From positions 1-42,159 of the forward strand of contig JAMONM010000042.1 of assembly GCA_027065825.1 (NCBI GenBank): 42,159 bases of DNA. Direction: 5' to 3'. The translations under genes were made by a program, and so were the position numbers. Source of the stretch: Campylobacterales bacterium. GTDB taxonomy: Bacteria > Campylobacterota > Campylobacteria > Campylobacterales > Nitratiruptoraceae. Positions 2-9,603 of this stretch are shown here, in pieces. The first letter of the stretch is position 1; each line of letters opens with the position of its first letter. A model generated the notes under the pieces. It searched no databases, was not told the DNA's origin, and worked only from the letters and a program-made list of their open reading frames with translations.

Positions 2-721
2 GCATTCCTGGAAGCAGAACTGCTGATTCAAGCTGGACTTGCAGACAGGGTGCTTATTGTTGGGATAGATGATCAAACCAATTCATTAGTTCTTGAACTA
101 TTCGGTATGCTTGAAGCCTCTATTACACCAGAACTTGAAACGAAGGGCATCATGCCAAGTGCTTTTGATGATATCAATTATGGCTTCCGACTTGGGCAAG
201 GTGCCGGCTATGTTCTGCTCGAAAGCGAAAAGTCTCTTAAAGAAAGCGGTAACAAACCGTTGGCTTATCTGGAAAAAACCGCGCTGACCGCTGAAAAGCT
301 TAGCAATCCGTTTGGACTGTCGCCGGATGGATTTGGTTATTACAAAATCATCAGGCAAGTTCTAGCACAAAGCAATGTGAATCAGAATGAGATTTCATTT
401 ATCAAAACTCACGGTACTGGTAGCAAATCCAACAATATTGCGGAGAGTAATGGAATCAAAAAGGCATTTGGTAATGAGTTCATTGCAACTAGCTACAAAC
501 CAGAGATCGGTCACACTCTTGGAGCAAACGCAATTATCGAGCTTGATATTGCACTCAAAGATGCCAAAGCAGGTTTTGTTCGTGGTATCATAAATCGTAC
601 CAAGCACGATGACCAATTCCTCTCGTACAATAAAGCAATGGATATTTCAAAAATTCTAATGCTGGGGAGTGGCATGGGCAATGTGTATGCTGCATCAATC
701 GTTTCTATCGCAAATTCATGA
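2..721 (+). CDS. beta-ketoacyl synthase, C-terminal part (5'-truncated by window edge)
   Basis: Frame stays open upstream of the listed ORF start to the window edge (AFLEAELLIQAGLADRVLIVGIDD...). KS motifs THGTGS and KPEIGHTLGA present; active-site Cys would lie outside the window. Confidence 0.85.
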   Translation, partial: AFLEAELLIQAGLADRVLIVGIDDQTNSLVLELFGMLEASITPELETKGIMPSAFDDINYGFRLGQGAGYVLLESEKSLKESGNKPLAYLEKTALTAEKLSNPFGLSPDGFGYYKIIRQVLAQSNVNQNEISFIKTHGTGSKSNNIAESNGIKKAFGNEFIATSYKPEIGHTLGANAIIELDIALKDAKAGFVRGIINRTKHDDQFLSYNKAMDISKILMLGSGMGNVYAASIVSIANS

Positions 722-1332
722 CCATACATGCTAAGGCTTTCGGCTACTTTAAGACAAACTGCTACATACTGGAGCAATCTGGTATGTCGCTCATTATTGA
801 TCCGGGGCAAGGTGCACACGCATGGATAGAGAAAACGATGAACGGAAAGCCGCTTGCTATACTAAATACCCACGGACACTATGATCATGTATTTGACAAC
901 TCAATACTACAGAAGAAAATGTCTATACCAATATATATACATCAAGATGATGCCTTACTACTTAAAGATGATGATACCGAAGTAGGTTTAATACCTTCTT
1001 TCCCAGATGTCTATCTAAATGATCAAACGGATTATGAGATTGGCCCTTTTCGCTTTAGATGTATTCATCTTCCAGGGCATTCGCATGGAAGTGTATTGCT
1101 TGACTTTGGTAAATACATCTTCAGTGGTGATTTTGTGATGGAGAACACAGTTGGAAGGTACGACTTTCGAACTTCTTGCAAAGCAGACATGCACAAAAGC
1201 CTTAAAAAATATAAGGACCAATTCTCTATTTATCGTAACAATCGACATGTACTTGTCTATCCTGGACATGGCAGACCAATTACTATTGGCGAATCTATAG
1301 AGACTATTAACAAATGGTTGAAATTTTTTTGA
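718..1332 (+). CDS. metallo-beta-lactamase-fold hydrolase (glyoxalase II-like)
   Basis: THGHYDH metal motif, LPGHSHGS, FSGDFVMENTVGR, YPGHG; start overlaps the KS stop. Confidence 0.85.
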   Translation: MTIHAKAFGYFKTNCYILEQSGMSLIIDPGQGAHAWIEKTMNGKPLAILNTHGHYDHVFDNSILQKKMSIPIYIHQDDALLLKDDDTEVGLIPSFPDVYLNDQTDYEIGPFRFRCIHLPGHSHGSVLLDFGKYIFSGDFVMENTVGRYDFRTSCKADMHKSLKKYKDQFSIYRNNRHVLVYPGHGRPITIGESIETINKWLKFF

Positions 1333-1357
1333 TAAAAATGACATAATAAGGAACAAC

Positions 1358-2467
1358 ATGAATGTATTGGCACTCGATTTCAGTCCTACACCTAAAGAGT
1401 TTTCACTTACGCACATGCTTTTGACGCGCTTTGTTAAAGGGATGATTTTAGCAGGTGCAAATGTTGAAATAATTAAATTCAGTAAAACTGATAACAACGT
1501 TGATCCATGTGTAGGTTGTCTTCACTGTTGGACTGTGACGCCCGGTGAGTGTAAAACAATTAAAGATGACATGAGCACGAGCGTATTCGCGAAATGGCAA
1601 AATGCGGATCTTGTAGTTTATGCTACGCCAATCTATAATCAATTTATGACGGCGAGTATGAAAAGTTTCATCGAAAGACTTCAGCCGGCAGGAGACATTG
1701 CAAATTTTAGAGGTCAAAGCAAAGCAAATTATCCGGATACGGTACTATTAGCTACGGCAACATATCATGGGAAAGAAGAATTCTCTTTTTTGTCAAGCTA
1801 TATGAATGGTTACTATGCCAAAGAGAAGAATTCCCGAATCCTTGTAGAACTTTATCGCCCACAAGTAAAATTCCTCAGTACAGACCTCTTCCCGAAATTC
1901 AAAAGTCGTATATTGTCAGCCTATGAGAAGGCTGGACAAGAATTAATCGAAACAGGTAGTGTATCCCCTGAAACTATTGACAATGCTACATGCGATCTAA
2001 CAGATATGGAACGCTTTAATAGACTGCAACTACTTATCAGCAGAACTATCCAAAAGCATAATATGAGCCACAAAGTATTTATAAGGAAAAAGCCTCCTCT
2101 TGATGTTACCAATATAGATGATTTTATCATGCTAAGTGGTTTGCTTATGGAAAATATGAACATTCCTAAAAAAGCCTTAGATGATTTCAAAATACAGATG
2201 AATTTTGTAGAAGGAAATTGTAGTACAGTGATCAGTAATGATAGTATTAAGGTCAGTAAAGGCATTGTTAAAAACCCCAACATACAAGTGGCGACCAACA
2301 TCGCGACATGGATGAGCATCATGGGAGGCAAAATAAGTTTTCAAGAAGCAGTTGAACAGCAGGATATAAATATTGAATTCAAAGACGAAAACAGTCGACA
2401 TATATTCCTCAATCTCATGCGTACTATGGCCCCAAACATTAGAGTGGAAAAAGGAGTGAGAACATAA
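1358..2467 (+). CDS. flavodoxin-fold NAD(P)H-dependent FMN oxidoreductase with C-terminal SCP2-like domain
   Basis: N-terminal half has VGCLHCW...GECKIKDDM-type Cys motif and ATPIYNQFMTASMKSFIERL; C-terminal ~130 aa resembles sterol-carrier-protein-2 fold (WMSIMGGKISFQEAVEQQDINIEFKDE). Confidence 0.7.
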   Translation: MNVLALDFSPTPKEFSLTHMLLTRFVKGMILAGANVEIIKFSKTDNNVDPCVGCLHCWTVTPGECKTIKDDMSTSVFAKWQNADLVVYATPIYNQFMTASMKSFIERLQPAGDIANFRGQSKANYPDTVLLATATYHGKEEFSFLSSYMNGYYAKEKNSRILVELYRPQVKFLSTDLFPKFKSRILSAYEKAGQELIETGSVSPETIDNATCDLTDMERFNRLQLLISRTIQKHNMSHKVFIRKKPPLDVTNIDDFIMLSGLLMENMNIPKKALDDFKIQMNFVEGNCSTVISNDSIKVSKGIVKNPNIQVATNIATWMSIMGGKISFQEAVEQQDINIEFKDENSRHIFLNLMRTMAPNIRVEKGVRT

Positions 2468-2856
2468 TGGAAATACGTGTTTATTACGAGGATACAGATG
2501 CCAATGGGATAGTTTACCATCCTAATTACATCAAGTATTGCGATCGGGCCAGATCAGAGTATTTTTTTCGGTATGGATTACGCCTCAAAGAAGGTAATTC
2601 ATACCTTGTGATCAGGAGTCTCGACGTTAAATATTATAAACCGGCGGTCTTGGGTGATATTCTTTTGGTTACCAATAAAATTGAATCAATTCAGAGGGCA
2701 TCCATTTCTGTATATCACGAAATATTGAAAAAGGATTCTGGTGAAAAGCTATTTTCCATGAAAATTACCCTTGTTTACTTAAGAAAAGGAGTGCCATCGA
2801 TGCTACCGGCTTCATATGTTGAGCTTTTTCATAAGTTCAATGATGGACTTATATAG
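2467..2856 (+). CDS. acyl-CoA/acyl-ACP thioesterase, 4HBT/YbgC family
   Basis: YYEDTDANGIVYHPNYIKYCDRARSEYF hot-dog thioesterase signature; 1 bp overlap with upstream gene. Confidence 0.88.
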   Translation: MEIRVYYEDTDANGIVYHPNYIKYCDRARSEYFFRYGLRLKEGNSYLVIRSLDVKYYKPAVLGDILLVTNKIESIQRASISVYHEILKKDSGEKLFSMKITLVYLRKGVPSMLPASYVELFHKFNDGLI

Positions 2857-2958
2857 ATTCAGTAACTTTGAAGCGTTGTAATTTAGCTGTAGTAACCAAC
2901 ACTTGATCTGACACTGATAAATTTCTCCTGAGAGTATTTGTTAGTTTGTTAGGAGCCA

Positions 2959-3300
2959 TTATATCCTGCTTTTTTCGATTAAAGCGATCATCTTGATCTG
3001 TGTAAGATGATTGTGTTTTTCGAAATATTCCATTAGGGTCATACCTTCACGGTTTTTACCCTTGACGGATTCGCTAGAAACTATAGTGTTTGAGTCATTC
3101 ATTTAAGTCATTTTGCAGCTCTTCGATGGATCAGTAGATTTTTTTCTAAACGAGATGGCATAGAACCTCCTACTGAACCGTCTTATGAAAGCGTTCACAG
3201 ATGTCGTTGGTTTGGAGAGATTTGGTTTTTGAGAGGATTACTCAATGACACAATAATACCATTCGTTGTTGACCATGCAGCTTACATAAAGCCAGTTTTT
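2959..3300 (-). pseudogene. decayed IS481/IS3-like transposase (rve integrase C-terminal region) remnant
   Basis: Reverse strand reads KSLQTNDICERFHKTVQ*EVLCHLV*KKIY*SIEELQNDLNE*LKHY, then after a frameshift GKNREGMTLMEYFEKHNHLTQIKMIALIEKSRI*. This matches the familiar 'Q-T-N-G-I-C-E-R-F-H-K-T ... S-I-E-E-L-Q-x-D-L-x-x-W-L' tail with several in-frame stops. Confidence 0.75.
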
Positions 3301-3322
3301 AAATAGACTACTTGGTCTATTT
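3301..3322. promoter_or_regulatory. perfect inverted repeat, TetR/NemR-like operator candidate
   Basis: AAATAGAC-TACTTG-GTCTATTT; inner TAGACTACTTGGTCTA differs by one base from TAGACCN4GGTCTA; lies just upstream of the 3374 KS gene. Confidence 0.5.
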
Positions 3323-3373
3323 TAAGGAAAAAAAGGTTAATATTCATTACAAAAATAAATTTAGGAGAATTCC

Positions 3374-4603
3374 ATGAAGCGCGTAGTTGTCACTGGAGTA
3401 GGAATGATTAATGCCCTTGGGCATACGAGCGAAACATCCTTTGATGCCATTACGAAGGGAGAGAGCGGTGTTGGGCCTATTACTCTTTTTGATGCTTCCG
3501 AACAAAAGGTTCGAATCGCAGCTGAAATTAAAAACTTTGATCCAGTTACTATTATGAACCCTAAAGACGTAAAAAAAGCTGATCGTTTTATTCATCTTGG
3601 TCTGCATGCGGCACGCGAATGCATCGAAGATGCTGGCCTTGCAGATTCTGATATAAGAGAATTATTTGGTATTAGTGCATCTAGCGGTATTGGAGGCCTT
3701 CCCCAGATTGAGAAAAATTCAATTATTTGCAACACTAAAGGCCCTGGGCGTGTTTCACCCTTTTTCATTCCATCGTCGTTGTGCAACATGTTGGGAGGTT
3801 ATGTATCGATCAGGTATGGATTGAAGGGTCCAAACTTGGCTTCCGTCACAGCATGTACAGCAGGACTTCATGCAATCACTGAAGCGACCAAGACGATTAT
3901 GCTTGGAGATGTTAAGGGAATGGTAGTGGTGGGTGCCGAATCTGCCATATCGGCCGTTGGAGTTGCAGGATTTGCCTCAATGAAAGCACTATCTACAAGA
4001 AATAATGAACCAAAAAAGGCATCACGCCCATTTGACAAGTATAGAGATGGTTTTGTTCTTGGAGAGGGAGCAGGTGCTCTTGTTCTCGAAGAACTTTCCC
4101 ACGCCTTAGAACGCGGAGCTAAAATTTACGGCGAAATCATTGGATACGGGGAAAGTGGAGATGCATACCATGTAACAATGCCTGCGCCGGAAGGCGATGG
4201 TGCATATCGAGCAATGAAGGCCGCCATGGCCAAAGCTGGATGGCCAAAGCTTGATTACATCAATGCTCATGGCACAAGTACTTATTACAACGATATGTAC
4301 GAGACTATGGCAATAAAAAAACTTTTCGGAGGCACGGATAAATGCCCGCCAGTAAGTTCTACAAAAGGGCAAATCGGACATTGCCTTGGGGCAGCAGGTG
4401 TGATTGAGGCAGTCATTTCTCTTAAAACAATGGAAAAAGGGATTATTCCCCCAACTATCAATCAAGAAGAGATCGACGAGAATTGTGATCTTGACTATGT
4501 ACCAAATAGCGCACGTCAAACCCCCGTTAATACAGTAATGAGTTGCAACTATGGCTTTGGTGGCACTAATGGTGCCATTATCTTTACAAAATACTCCATC
4601 TAA
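3374..4603 (+). CDS. 3-oxoacyl-ACP synthase II (FabF/KS-like)
   Basis: Cys motif SVTACTAGLHAI, NAHGTSTYYND, STKGQIGHCLGAAG; SD aggag upstream of ATG. Confidence 0.92.
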   Translation: MKRVVVTGVGMINALGHTSETSFDAITKGESGVGPITLFDASEQKVRIAAEIKNFDPVTIMNPKDVKKADRFIHLGLHAARECIEDAGLADSDIRELFGISASSGIGGLPQIEKNSIICNTKGPGRVSPFFIPSSLCNMLGGYVSIRYGLKGPNLASVTACTAGLHAITEATKTIMLGDVKGMVVVGAESAISAVGVAGFASMKALSTRNNEPKKASRPFDKYRDGFVLGEGAGALVLEELSHALERGAKIYGEIIGYGESGDAYHVTMPAPEGDGAYRAMKAAMAKAGWPKLDYINAHGTSTYYNDMYETMAIKKLFGGTDKCPPVSSTKGQIGHCLGAAGVIEAVISLKTMEKGIIPPTINQEEIDENCDLDYVPNSARQTPVNTVMSCNYGFGGTNGAIIFTKYSI

Positions 4604-4612
4604 TACAGTGAC

Positions 4613-5374
4613 ATGAAGATAACAGTTATTAATTCTAGCCCTAGAAAAAAGGGAGTGACTTCCTCGTTACTGCATTCACTTACAAATGGTTTCAATGACG
4701 CTGGAGCCATTTTTGAAGTTTACAATCTCTACGAGATGAATATAAAATATTGTGATGGTTGTTTTCAATGTTGGTACAAACACCAAGGTACTTGCAAATT
4801 CCATGATAGTTTTAATGAGATCTACAATACGATGATACAATCGGACCTGATTGTAATTGCATCTCCTATCTATGGAATGATGATTAATGGGATGCTCAAA
4901 TCATTTCTTGATCGTGTATCGATGGTCTCTCATCTTCCTGATTTTATCATAGATGAGCATAGTAAAAAAATGGTCAAGCCAATGTATGACTATCTTCCAC
5001 CAATTGCCATTTTAATGGTTGGCAATATGTCTGGGCGTGAAATTTTTGATGCCGCAACATTGTTTTTTACTGAATATTTTAGAATTACTAATGCGGAACT
5101 GAGGGTAATAATGTTACGTCATCAGTCTGAACTTCTCATTAGACCGATACTTGAAGATGTCAAATCGAAAGTATTTGGAGCCATGAGGCAAGCTGGTTTT
5201 GAATTGGTTAAAGAGGGAATTGTAAAGCCCAATACCCTTAAACAGATAGAACAAGACCTCCTTGAAATAGATAAATTTATTGAAGGACATAATATGTTTT
5301 GGAAGATTTGTACGCGTAAAAAAATAGCACCAATGAATGTGGAATTTGATAAATATCCGTTTTTAAAAATATAG
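4613..5374 (+). CDS. flavodoxin-fold NAD(P)H-dependent oxidoreductase
   Basis: NSSPRKKGVTSSLLHSL, CDGCFQCWYKHQGTCKFHD, ASPIYGMMINGMLKSFLDR; paralogous to the N-terminal part of the 1358-2467 product. Confidence 0.82.
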   Translation: MKITVINSSPRKKGVTSSLLHSLTNGFNDAGAIFEVYNLYEMNIKYCDGCFQCWYKHQGTCKFHDSFNEIYNTMIQSDLIVIASPIYGMMINGMLKSFLDRVSMVSHLPDFIIDEHSKKMVKPMYDYLPPIAILMVGNMSGREIFDAATLFFTEYFRITNAELRVIMLRHQSELLIRPILEDVKSKVFGAMRQAGFELVKEGIVKPNTLKQIEQDLLEIDKFIEGHNMFWKICTRKKIAPMNVEFDKYPFLKI

Positions 5375-5385
5375 AAGGAAATGAA

Positions 5386-6135
5386 ATGAAATTTACAGGA
5401 AAAAATGTACTTGTAACAGGTGGGGGTCGAGGTATTGGTGCCGGAATTGCAACCACGCTAGCGCAATATGGACTTAAAGTATGGATCAATTATAATAATT
5501 CAGAAGAGCATGCCAAGTCTCTTATGAATGAGATTCTTGATAAGTTTCCAGACGCAGAGGTTGAGACAATTAGATTTAATGTTGCTTCTGAAATGAATTT
5601 TCTTGATGCGATGAATCATATAATTCAACAAGATGGAGGGTTGGATTATCTTGTAAATAATGCTGGCATTACGAATGACAAGATATCGATCTCAATGAGC
5701 GTGTCTGAGTATGATCAAGTAATGAATGTAAATGCACGCTCATGTTTTATTGGATCTAGAGAGGCTCTCAAAATAATGGCTCGCAAACATTTTGGAGCAG
5801 TGGTAAATATTTCGTCAGTAACGGCTCAAATGGGGAATGTTGGACAAGTTAATTACGCCTCATCCAAAGGAGCAATAAATTCAATGACAAAAACATTTGC
5901 ACTAGAAGGGGCACTTAGGGGTGTCAGGTTCAATTCAGTCTCACCTGGACTCATTAAAACGGATATGGTTAAGCATGTCAATGATGACGCCATCAATGTA
6001 TTGAAAAGCCGTATACCCATGAGACGTCTTGGAACTATTGACGAAGTATCTTATACTGTAGCGTTTCTATTAAGTGATTACGCTTCGTATATAACTGGTG
6101 AAAATATCAATATCAATGGCGGTATCTATATGTAA
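5386..6135 (+). CDS. 3-oxoacyl-ACP reductase-like SDR
   Basis: VTGGGRGIGAGIA, NNAGIT, NISS...YASSKGA, INGGIYM; FabG-like. Confidence 0.92.
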   Translation: MKFTGKNVLVTGGGRGIGAGIATTLAQYGLKVWINYNNSEEHAKSLMNEILDKFPDAEVETIRFNVASEMNFLDAMNHIIQQDGGLDYLVNNAGITNDKISISMSVSEYDQVMNVNARSCFIGSREALKIMARKHFGAVVNISSVTAQMGNVGQVNYASSKGAINSMTKTFALEGALRGVRFNSVSPGLIKTDMVKHVNDDAINVLKSRIPMRRLGTIDEVSYTVAFLLSDYASYITGENININGGIYM

Positions 6136-6339
6136 TCCAAGGATGGTTTTTGGTATGATTAGGACAATGATATTAGATACTCTCACACATTAATGCACCG
6201 CTTGTTGTTGACAGAGGGTGAATTGCAGATCAATGATATTAGCCACTCCTTCAGATAGTCGTCCTCGCTGGGTTTGAGTAGGTCGCAACACGGCAATGTC
6301 TCGAAGCATGTTGTCCGGTTAGAGAGGCATATGCTCCAT

Positions 6340-6528
6340 CTTCAATTTGGCAGCAAATTTAGTACATTCAACTATTTTCTTGATATAGATTCGTCTTTGG
6401 AACCGGATATTTTGTACAGAACAAGAAAATCTTTAGAGGAGATGGGGCTTTTAAAAAAGATTTCCAAGGGAGAATACATAATTACCGATGTTTTTATTGA
6501 ATTTTATTTAAAAAATGTTTTTGAGTAA
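6340..6528 (+). pseudogene. truncated ATPase C-terminal (winged-helix) fragment
   Basis: LEPDILYRTRKSLEEMGLLKKISKGEYIITDVFIEFYLKNVF resembles the C-terminal wHTH of archaeal-type AAA ATPases; no P-loop part upstream. Lies in the 3' part of the ORF at 6274..6528. Confidence 0.45.
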
Positions 6529-6576
6529 ATATCAATTGCATTGGAATATGTGGTTCATGGAAGGAAATCTCAAAAA

Positions 6577-6936
6577 ATGGAAAAACTAAATATAATAATT
6601 TTAAATTTATTAGCATTAGTTACATTCTTTGCAACTATGTTTTTAATATTAGGGTATGTTTTTGCATCAGTAGCTTCTAAGATTAAAGCTCTTACAGAAA
6701 AAAAATATATGATATTAATAATTGGTTTACTATTTGACTTAATAGTTTATTATTTCTATTACAAAGTATTGTTAAACGAACTCTCTTTCGAATTGGTAGC
6801 TACTTTCTCAGATATGTTTGATGTTACCGTTTTGTTGCTTTTGCATGCGTTGCTGATAATTTTTTTCGGTTTTCACTTTAACCAACTATATCCAAATAGA
6901 GGACAAAAGGGTGTAAATGAAAAGGTTTATTGTTAG
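6577..6936 (+). CDS. small multi-pass membrane protein, unknown function
   Basis: Hydrophobic segments IIILNLLALVTFFATMFLILGYVF, YMILIIGLLFDLIVYYFYY, LLLLHALLIIFFGFHF; ATG at 6577 preferred over 6541. Confidence 0.6.
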   Translation: MEKLNIIILNLLALVTFFATMFLILGYVFASVASKIKALTEKKYMILIIGLLFDLIVYYFYYKVLLNELSFELVATFSDMFDVTVLLLLHALLIIFFGFHFNQLYPNRGQKGVNEKVYC

Positions 6937-7273
6937 CATTTGTATCGTAATTGCAAATTTTGCTTATGCCTGTACCGGTGACTGCATAACTTGTCATCCG
7001 GTGTTAAAAAAATCGATAGAGGAATCGCACCATCGAATCCTAAAGAGCTGTATAGAGTGCCATAAAAACAACACTGGCAATACCGGTTCTTGCGGACAAG
7101 ATTGCTTCGATTGTCACGACAAGCAAAAACTTATAGCTTCAAGTTTGCCAGAGCATCGGGCAATAAAAAAATGTTCTAAATGTCACATTGAAAGGTTCAA
7201 TATAATAGAAAAAAATTCGTTTTATGGGGAACATCTGCTTGATATAATTAATAAAGGGAAAAAGAATGAATAA
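6917..7273 (+). CDS. periplasmic tetraheme c-type cytochrome
   Basis: Signal peptide plus four CXXCH motifs: CITCH, CIECH, CFDCH, CSKCH. Confidence 0.85.
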   Translation: MKRFIVSICIVIANFAYACTGDCITCHPVLKKSIEESHHRILKSCIECHKNNTGNTGSCGQDCFDCHDKQKLIASSLPEHRAIKKCSKCHIERFNIIEKNSFYGEHLLDIINKGKKNE

Positions 7274-7559
7274 ACTAATTGAGAAACTGGGCAAAAAATA
7301 TGAGAATATGACGAAAAATGAGCTTATTGATGAATTAAAAAACGAGTGTAAGAGGCAAACTTGCTATGCTGATTGTTATGTTGATTTAATATGCGAAGAT
7401 GACAATGCTGTTGTTTTCGAGATTGGAATTTATTTCGAAGATGGTAAAGGATTTGATTTAAAATGTGCAGTTGAAAAACGCATCAAGATTTTTAAAAAAG
7501 TCGACGAAAAATTTAAATTACATACAGATACAGTTAAATATTATAAAGATTTTCATTAA
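7266..7559 (+). CDS. hypothetical small soluble protein
   Basis: 97 aa ORF overlapping the cytochrome gene end by 8 bp (translational-coupling arrangement). Confidence 0.5.
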   Translation: MNKLIEKLGKKYENMTKNELIDELKNECKRQTCYADCYVDLICEDDNAVVFEIGIYFEDGKGFDLKCAVEKRIKIFKKVDEKFKLHTDTVKYYKDFH

Positions 7560-7611
7560 AAAGTTTACCAATAAACCGAAAGCAAAAATATTTTTAAAAA
7601 CGGAGGAATGT

Positions 7612-8013
7612 ATGTCAATAAATATGTTTACATTGCTTTGTGTTTCAGCGTTACTTACTTTTTTTGCAATTGTATGTATATCTATATATAGGTTTATGAA
7701 GGAGAGGAAGTTTAAAAATTTTGCGTATATGATGCTTTCAATGGCCGCACTACTTTTTTTATATGGTTATGTATATTTTTTTTATAATTATGGAGAAATT
7801 GGGGAGGATGAATATAAACAATTGTATCAAATTGCCGAAGATCCTAAATATAGATTAGAGATATTCGATCTCTTAAAAGATGGCAAGATTACACCGGCTG
7901 AATGGAATATTTTTATTATTAATCATAAAGATGATCCAATCGATCTCGAAGATACCAAGAGGAACAAATTCAAAAATAGACTAATGGTAATGAAACAGAG
8001 ATTTGAAGTATAA
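7612..8013 (+). CDS. membrane protein with EF-hand-like loop
   Basis: ATG at 7612 preceded by ggagg; two TM segments; DLLKDGKITPAE resembles an EF-hand loop. Confidence 0.55.
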   Translation: MSINMFTLLCVSALLTFFAIVCISIYRFMKERKFKNFAYMMLSMAALLFLYGYVYFFYNYGEIGEDEYKQLYQIAEDPKYRLEIFDLLKDGKITPAEWNIFIINHKDDPIDLEDTKRNKFKNRLMVMKQRFEV

Positions 8014-8058
8014 AAAGCAAGAACCGGCCGGTGAGAGCATATCCCCTTGCGTTAAAAC

Positions 8059-8109
8059 CTTCCCATAAGGGAAGCTCCGCCTATATTGCGTAGCAATTAG
8101 GTGGGGAGG
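8059..8109. repeat. tandem stem-loop element
   Basis: CTTCCC-ATAA-GGGAAG (8059-8074) followed by imperfect inverted repeat CTCCGCCTATATTGC-GTA-GCAATTAGGTGGGGAG. Confidence 0.5.
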
Positions 8110-8151
8110 TTTACTTTTTGATTGGAAAAATAAAAAAGCAATTTTAGAAAA

Positions 8152-8179
8152 AAGTTTGAAAATTATAGTTTTCAAAACA
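8152..8179. other. dif-like chromosome-dimer resolution site candidate
   Basis: AAGTTTGAAAA-TTATAG-TTTTCAAAACA: 11-6-11 architecture with perfect inner arms TTTGAAAA/TTTTCAAA, immediately 5' of an xerH-type recombinase gene. Confidence 0.68.
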
Positions 8180-8185
8180 ATTTGA

Positions 8186-8191
8186 TATAAT
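8186..8191 (+). promoter_or_regulatory. -10 box (TATAAT) for xerH
   Basis: TTTGATATAATCG; the expected -35 region falls in the dif-like palindrome. Confidence 0.5.
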
Positions 8192-8229
8192 CGAATAATA
8201 AAAAATATTTTAGGTATTGAGGTGATACA

Positions 8230-9309: not shown

Positions 9310-9603
9310 ATGAAAGAGTGCGCTTCTTTGGAAGAGGTTCGAAAAGAGATCGACAAGATAGACGAAGAGATCGTAAAATTAATAGCCCAGCGCAGCAGAT
9401 ACGTAAAACAGGCTGCCAAATTCAAGGTTAGCGTCGAAGAGATAAAAAGCGACGAGAGAATCGAGGACGTTTTAAATCACGTAAGGCATTTGGCGGCTAC
9501 TTTAGGTATCTCTCCAAATTTGGTAGCCGATATTTTTAAAATCTTGATCGACAAAATGGTGGAGATGGAGATCGAAGAGTTCAAAGAGGGAGGAGCCTAC
9601 TGA
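9310..9603 (+). CDS. chorismate mutase, AroQ class (PchB-like)
   Basis: EVRKEIDKIDEEIVKLIAQRSRYVKQAAKFK ... IFKILIDKMVEMEIEE. Confidence 0.8.
   Translation: MKECASLEEVRKEIDKIDEEIVKLIAQRSRYVKQAAKFKVSVEEIKSDERIEDVLNHVRHLAATLGISPNLVADIFKILIDKMVEMEIEEFKEGGAY

Follow-up and report, generated by a model that had tools for sequence, protein, structure and literature searches.

Does the dif-like sequence that lies directly upstream of a tyrosine recombinase gene in a Campylobacterales bacterium (Nitratiruptoraceae; contig JAMONM010000042.1, 42,159 nucleotides, the whole of which was analyzed and is called the window here) resolve chromosome dimers, and does its closeness to that gene have a meaning of its own? 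We have very little doubt about the identity of the two elements: the site is difH, the chromosome dimer-resolution site, and the neighboring gene encodes XerH, the only Xer recombinase of the genome. A further role, in the transcription of xerH, can be proposed more tentatively from the spacing between difH and predicted promoters across Campylobacterota.

Identity and uniqueness of the site

The plus strand at exactly window 8152-8179 carries AAGTTTGAAAATTATAGTTTTCAAAACA, with the layout AAGTTTGAAAA-TTATAG-TTTTCAAAACA. Its minus-strand reading, TGTTTTGAAAACTATAATTTTCAAACTT, is the published Campylobacterota difH consensus, which was obtained from 24 species (...GTATTGAAAACTATAATTTTCAAACTTTT; PMC3325230; also PMC2731167). 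The core, the center and the full right arm are identical to the consensus, and the outer left arm is slightly different. A preliminary description of this DNA, made from its letters, had noted a dif-like site here and proposed comparison with published difH sequences; the match to the consensus in Table 2 of both PMC2731167 and PMC3325230 bears it out. It had also placed the site correctly beside xerH, although published convention has difH read on the minus strand. Here difH is thus directed away from the gene, and the arm next to xerH is the left one, which in H. pylori binds XerH more strongly (PMC5241119). Likewise, the 11-6-11 layout given there is correct as to a 28-mer with a 6-bp center, but slightly off in the arms, since in the XerH structure the protein spans 11 bp on the left side and 10 bp on the right (PMC5241119); on the window difH, the expected XerH coverage is by analogy 11 + 10 bp and not 11 + 11. 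The inverted repeat is also imperfect, its arms agreeing at 8/11 positions. These corrections, of orientation and arm lengths, are minor, and the earlier reading is supported in substance.

The 28-mer occurs once genome-wide with up to three mismatches allowed (1.61-Mb draft, 116 contigs, 99% complete), though a second difH could conceivably lie in a gap of so fragmented an assembly. The degenerate pattern TTGAAAA-N6-TTTTCAA has a single occurrence in the whole genome, the difH site itself, and every other near-match combines an arm mismatch with an unrelated center. Base composition predicts 0.03 copies of this pattern in 1.61 Mb, or about 3e-5 if the center must be CTATAA, so the site is not a chance match. 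The invariant core TGAAAAC---A-TTTTCAA has one reverse match in the genome, on the minus strand within the same 28 bp. The site is intergenic, between an open reading frame that ends at 8013 and the start of xerH, 50 bp away; five of its 28 bases are G or C, a fraction of 0.18 compared with about 0.41 across the contig.

The xerH product is a full-length homolog of H. pylori XerH (residues 1-347 aligned to 5jjv, E 7e-106), has a length inside the 350-363 aa used as criterion for the XerH family, and carries the domains PF18644 and PF00589. It keeps all seven catalytic residues of the H. pylori protein (R213, E216, K239, H309, R312, H335, Y344; their counterparts are given in the table below), and the arm-contacting K290 is conserved as K277. 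It is the single PF00589 match in the genome, where no other tyrosine recombinase was detected, in agreement with the single-recombinase gene that had been described next to the site. Assignment to XerCD was rejected: the protein scores under the XerC and XerD cut-offs, and there are no separate XerC and XerD proteins. It is not XerS either, scoring 95.7 bits with the XerS equivalog model against a cut-off of 267. FtsK is present in the genome (gamma domain, E 2e-27).

Features of the difH-xerH locus, in window coordinates
Feature	Position	Strand	Details and basis
difH site, 28-mer	8152..8179	-	TGTTTTGAAAA-CTATAA-TTTTCAAACTT; sequence and consensus in PMC2731167, PMC3325230
difH right arm	8153..8162	-	TTTTCAAACT, consensus-identical; sequence, PMC3325230 Table 2
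difH 6-bp central region (putative strand-exchange region)	8163..8168	-	CTATAA; sequence, role from PMC5241119
difH left arm, xerH side	8169..8179	-	sequence compared with PMC5241119; probable role by homology
putative xerH -10 box	8186..8191	+	TATAAT (extended context ATTTGATATAAT); score unreached in 200 leader shuffles
Shine-Dalgarno-like sequence before xerH	8219..8224	+	GAGGTG; sequence
xerH, single-chain Xer tyrosine recombinase, 350 aa	8230..9282	+	R203, E206, K229, H296, R299, H322, Y331
chorismate mutase-like gene	9310..9603	+	linked to xerH in same-genus genomes

By homology, each difH would be bound on its two arms by two XerH molecules, with earlier and tighter binding of the left arm. 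At the septum, FtsK would bring together both difH copies carried by a chromosome dimer, and Y331 would then cut the DNA at the borders of the 6-bp center and exchange strands there, yielding two monomers. For the window strain, we infer XerH binding, cleavage and FtsK dependence by homology, and placement of difH in the terminus region from its relatives. The feature is almost certainly of a kind already known, an ordinary difH beside xerH serving as the dimer-resolution site of a Nitratiruptor-family bacterium.

The left flank of difH

A low-GC block of small open reading frames (window 6274-8013, down to 0.315) ends just before difH. Its reading frames have no Pfam, PHROG or PADLOC match above cut-off, and the parts sampled from two genomes of the same genus do not contain the block. 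Further left, window 50-6135 holds ketoacyl-synthase-like, FabF, FabG, thioesterase, metallo-hydrolase and two FMN-reductase-like genes; it resembles a small fatty-acid or aryl-polyene type cluster, and for most of it the sampled sequence of the genus has no equivalent. Between the last orphan reading frame and difH, the intergenic stretch 8014-8130 has a predicted hairpin (CTCCGCCTA...TAGGTGGGG). As a candidate structured RNA or repeat it yielded nothing firm: it has no Rfam match, is present in a single copy in the genome, and has a fold z-score of -1.5.

Such a flank could mean that the site is the attachment site of a mobile element that uses Xer recombination, and not a chromosomal dif. 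The low-GC stretch (0.315) with its family-less reading frames, at 6.5-8.0 kb, does end at difH, and the gene order left of the site is not common to relatives. However, an insertion at difH is largely refuted by the single difH copy, which has no flanking partner, by the lack of phage or integrase genes found beside it, and by the relatives in which the difH-xerH pair occurs without these reading frames. We consider an attachment site highly improbable, and retain the chromosomal difH.

Position relative to the replication terminus

The preliminary description held that the site likely marks the terminus region. The skew of the contig itself gives a mixed answer: it is positive to about 10 kb and then mixed, with no single peak, over a contig of only 42 kb. 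Two sampled complete genomes of the same genus, in which we placed the skew switch by a two-breakpoint fit, are clearer. In G259 (1.77 Mb), the switch is at 1.510 Mb and the orthologous difH at 1.478 Mb, 32 kb apart; in G053 (1.99 Mb), they are at 1.010 Mb and 0.954 Mb, 56 kb apart. Random placement would give such closeness with a chance of about 4% and 6%, respectively. On the right-hand side of xerH, the window shares its gene order with the terminus region of each genome; left of difH, this collinearity is absent. In G053, the piece comprising difH, xerH and chorismate mutase is inverted relative to the adjoining block. The assembly contains no better dif, which together with a distant skew switch had been named as what would speak against the site. 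The terminus claim is supported by the two relatives, and difH would supply the draft assembly with a fixed terminus marker.

Spacing between difH and the predicted xerH promoter

Linkage of difH to xerH is found in most but not all Campylobacterota species, and among the 29 closest relatives examined, difH is directly upstream of xerH in 28, in either orientation. We scored -10 boxes, all of them predicted, in the interval from difH to the start codon, and took a score of 17 or more to denote a strong extended box. In 32 of the 37 loci with such a box, the difH dyad is 31-34 nt upstream of it. This spacing holds in 7 of 12 genera, counting a genus when at least half of its scored loci show it (loci within one genus are not independent), and extends to four families and both difH orientations: the Nitratiruptor family, the Helicobacter group, Arcobacteraceae and the Sulfurospirillum group. 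When leaders were shuffled, at most five genera had it in 500 trials, and usually none or one. The range was picked post hoc from the data; the result accordingly describes a pattern, with the shuffles as control, and is not a test planned in advance. The spacing is 33 for loci with difH in the same orientation and mostly 32-33 for the opposite one, while the distance from the predicted -10 to the ATG varies from 32 to 140. The window itself is an outlier, with its 28-mer ending 6 bp ahead of the predicted -10 and a dyad-to-box spacing of 20 nt; in G053 the spacing is 47.

Two observations were made in Arcobacteraceae. Within genus g10, the orientation of difH with respect to xerH differs between species (L018, L130 and L148 versus L019-L031), while the distance from difH to the box is unchanged. 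In a genome with two xerH genes (G371, locus L143), a half-difH-like TTTTCAAAC is found upstream of the -10 box of one copy.

A fixed distance in either orientation, across several Campylobacterota families, raises the possibility that difH is also the operator of xerH, an addition to dimer resolution and not an alternative to it: XerH bound at the terminus site would adjust its own transcription, and its occupancy there would set the XerH level. We regard this as a reasonable conjecture that falls somewhat short of even chances. Repression would be the simplest form, because the XerH footprint would overlap or abut the site of RNA polymerase; in the window, where the -10 begins only 6 bp past the 28-mer, polymerase and XerH could hardly bind together. 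The number of strong-box loci and genera with the common spacing, set against the shuffles, points in this direction, as does its constancy in both orientations while the distance to the ATG is free to vary. There is also precedent in the autorepression known from integrases and in MrpR, a repressor with a recombinase fold (PMC10516654). On the other hand, the spacing in the window is itself exceptional, in several species of the same family 7-40 bp separate difH from the ATG and this interval holds no clear box, and every box is a prediction, with loci of one genus not independent of each other. Moreover, in species with difH elsewhere, we found no residual palindromic operator at xerH clearly above chance, so such control would be dispensable.

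The spacing may instead reflect RNA polymerase and not XerH, a reading to which we give slightly less credence than to the operator. Sigma-70 promoters of Campylobacterota are without a -35 box and have T-tracts phased at about -17, -27 and -38 (PMC3847290, PMC3656092), and the TTTT of a difH arm could be one of these tracts. In both difH orientations a TTTT faces the promoter. That of the window occupies roughly -29 to -26 and coincides with the -27 peak, which would account for the spacing of 20 nt. However, the common spacing puts this tract near -42 to -39 and misses the -38 peak by about 2-3 nt; G053, with its spacing of 47, fits no peak; and helical phasing alone would permit several spacings, yet one dominates. 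The spacing is the only part of our results that goes beyond the published literature searched, and it may be new; in that literature, which comprised papers readable without subscription, we found no report of XerH autoregulation. If the regulatory hypothesis of an operator at difH is true, it would account for the frequent retention of the site next to its gene in single-recombinase systems.

Comparison with known systems

The locus confirms the textbook single-recombinase system in a genome of the Nitratiruptor family. The XerCD/dif system of E. coli, and of Sulfurimonas and Sulfurovum, performs the same task with two recombinases, whereas XerH is the only one detected here. XerS/difSL of streptococci and lactococci resembles the window in having one recombinase with its site beside the gene (PMC5357621); however, XerH and XerS are phylogenetically unrelated (PMC2731167), and difSL is 31 bp long, with a longer center. 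In H. pylori XerH/difH (5jjv, 5jk0; PMC5241119), the recombinase is a full-length homolog with the same seven catalytic residues and arm-contacting lysine, and the site shares the GAAAA/TTTTC inner arms and a 6-bp center. The system differs in the sequence of that center (CTGCAC versus CTATAA) and in the distance from difH to xerH, about 2 kb compared with 50 bp in the window.

Relatives with a XerH identity of about 71-72% include Nitratiruptor MAGs, and Nitratiruptor sp. SB155-2, of the same family, has a XerH about 71% identical to that of the window. There, too, difH precedes xerH with the same relative orientation, its core lying 43 bp from the xerH start, and the core TTGAAAACTATAATTTTCAAACTTTT is identical apart from left-arm bases. 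The outer left arm is AGTATTGAAAA in SB155-2 and TGTTTTGAAAA in the window, and no -10 box stands at the place where that of the window follows difH by 6 bp. The pairing of difH with xerH in SB155-2 was listed as early as 2009 (PMC2731167 Table 2).
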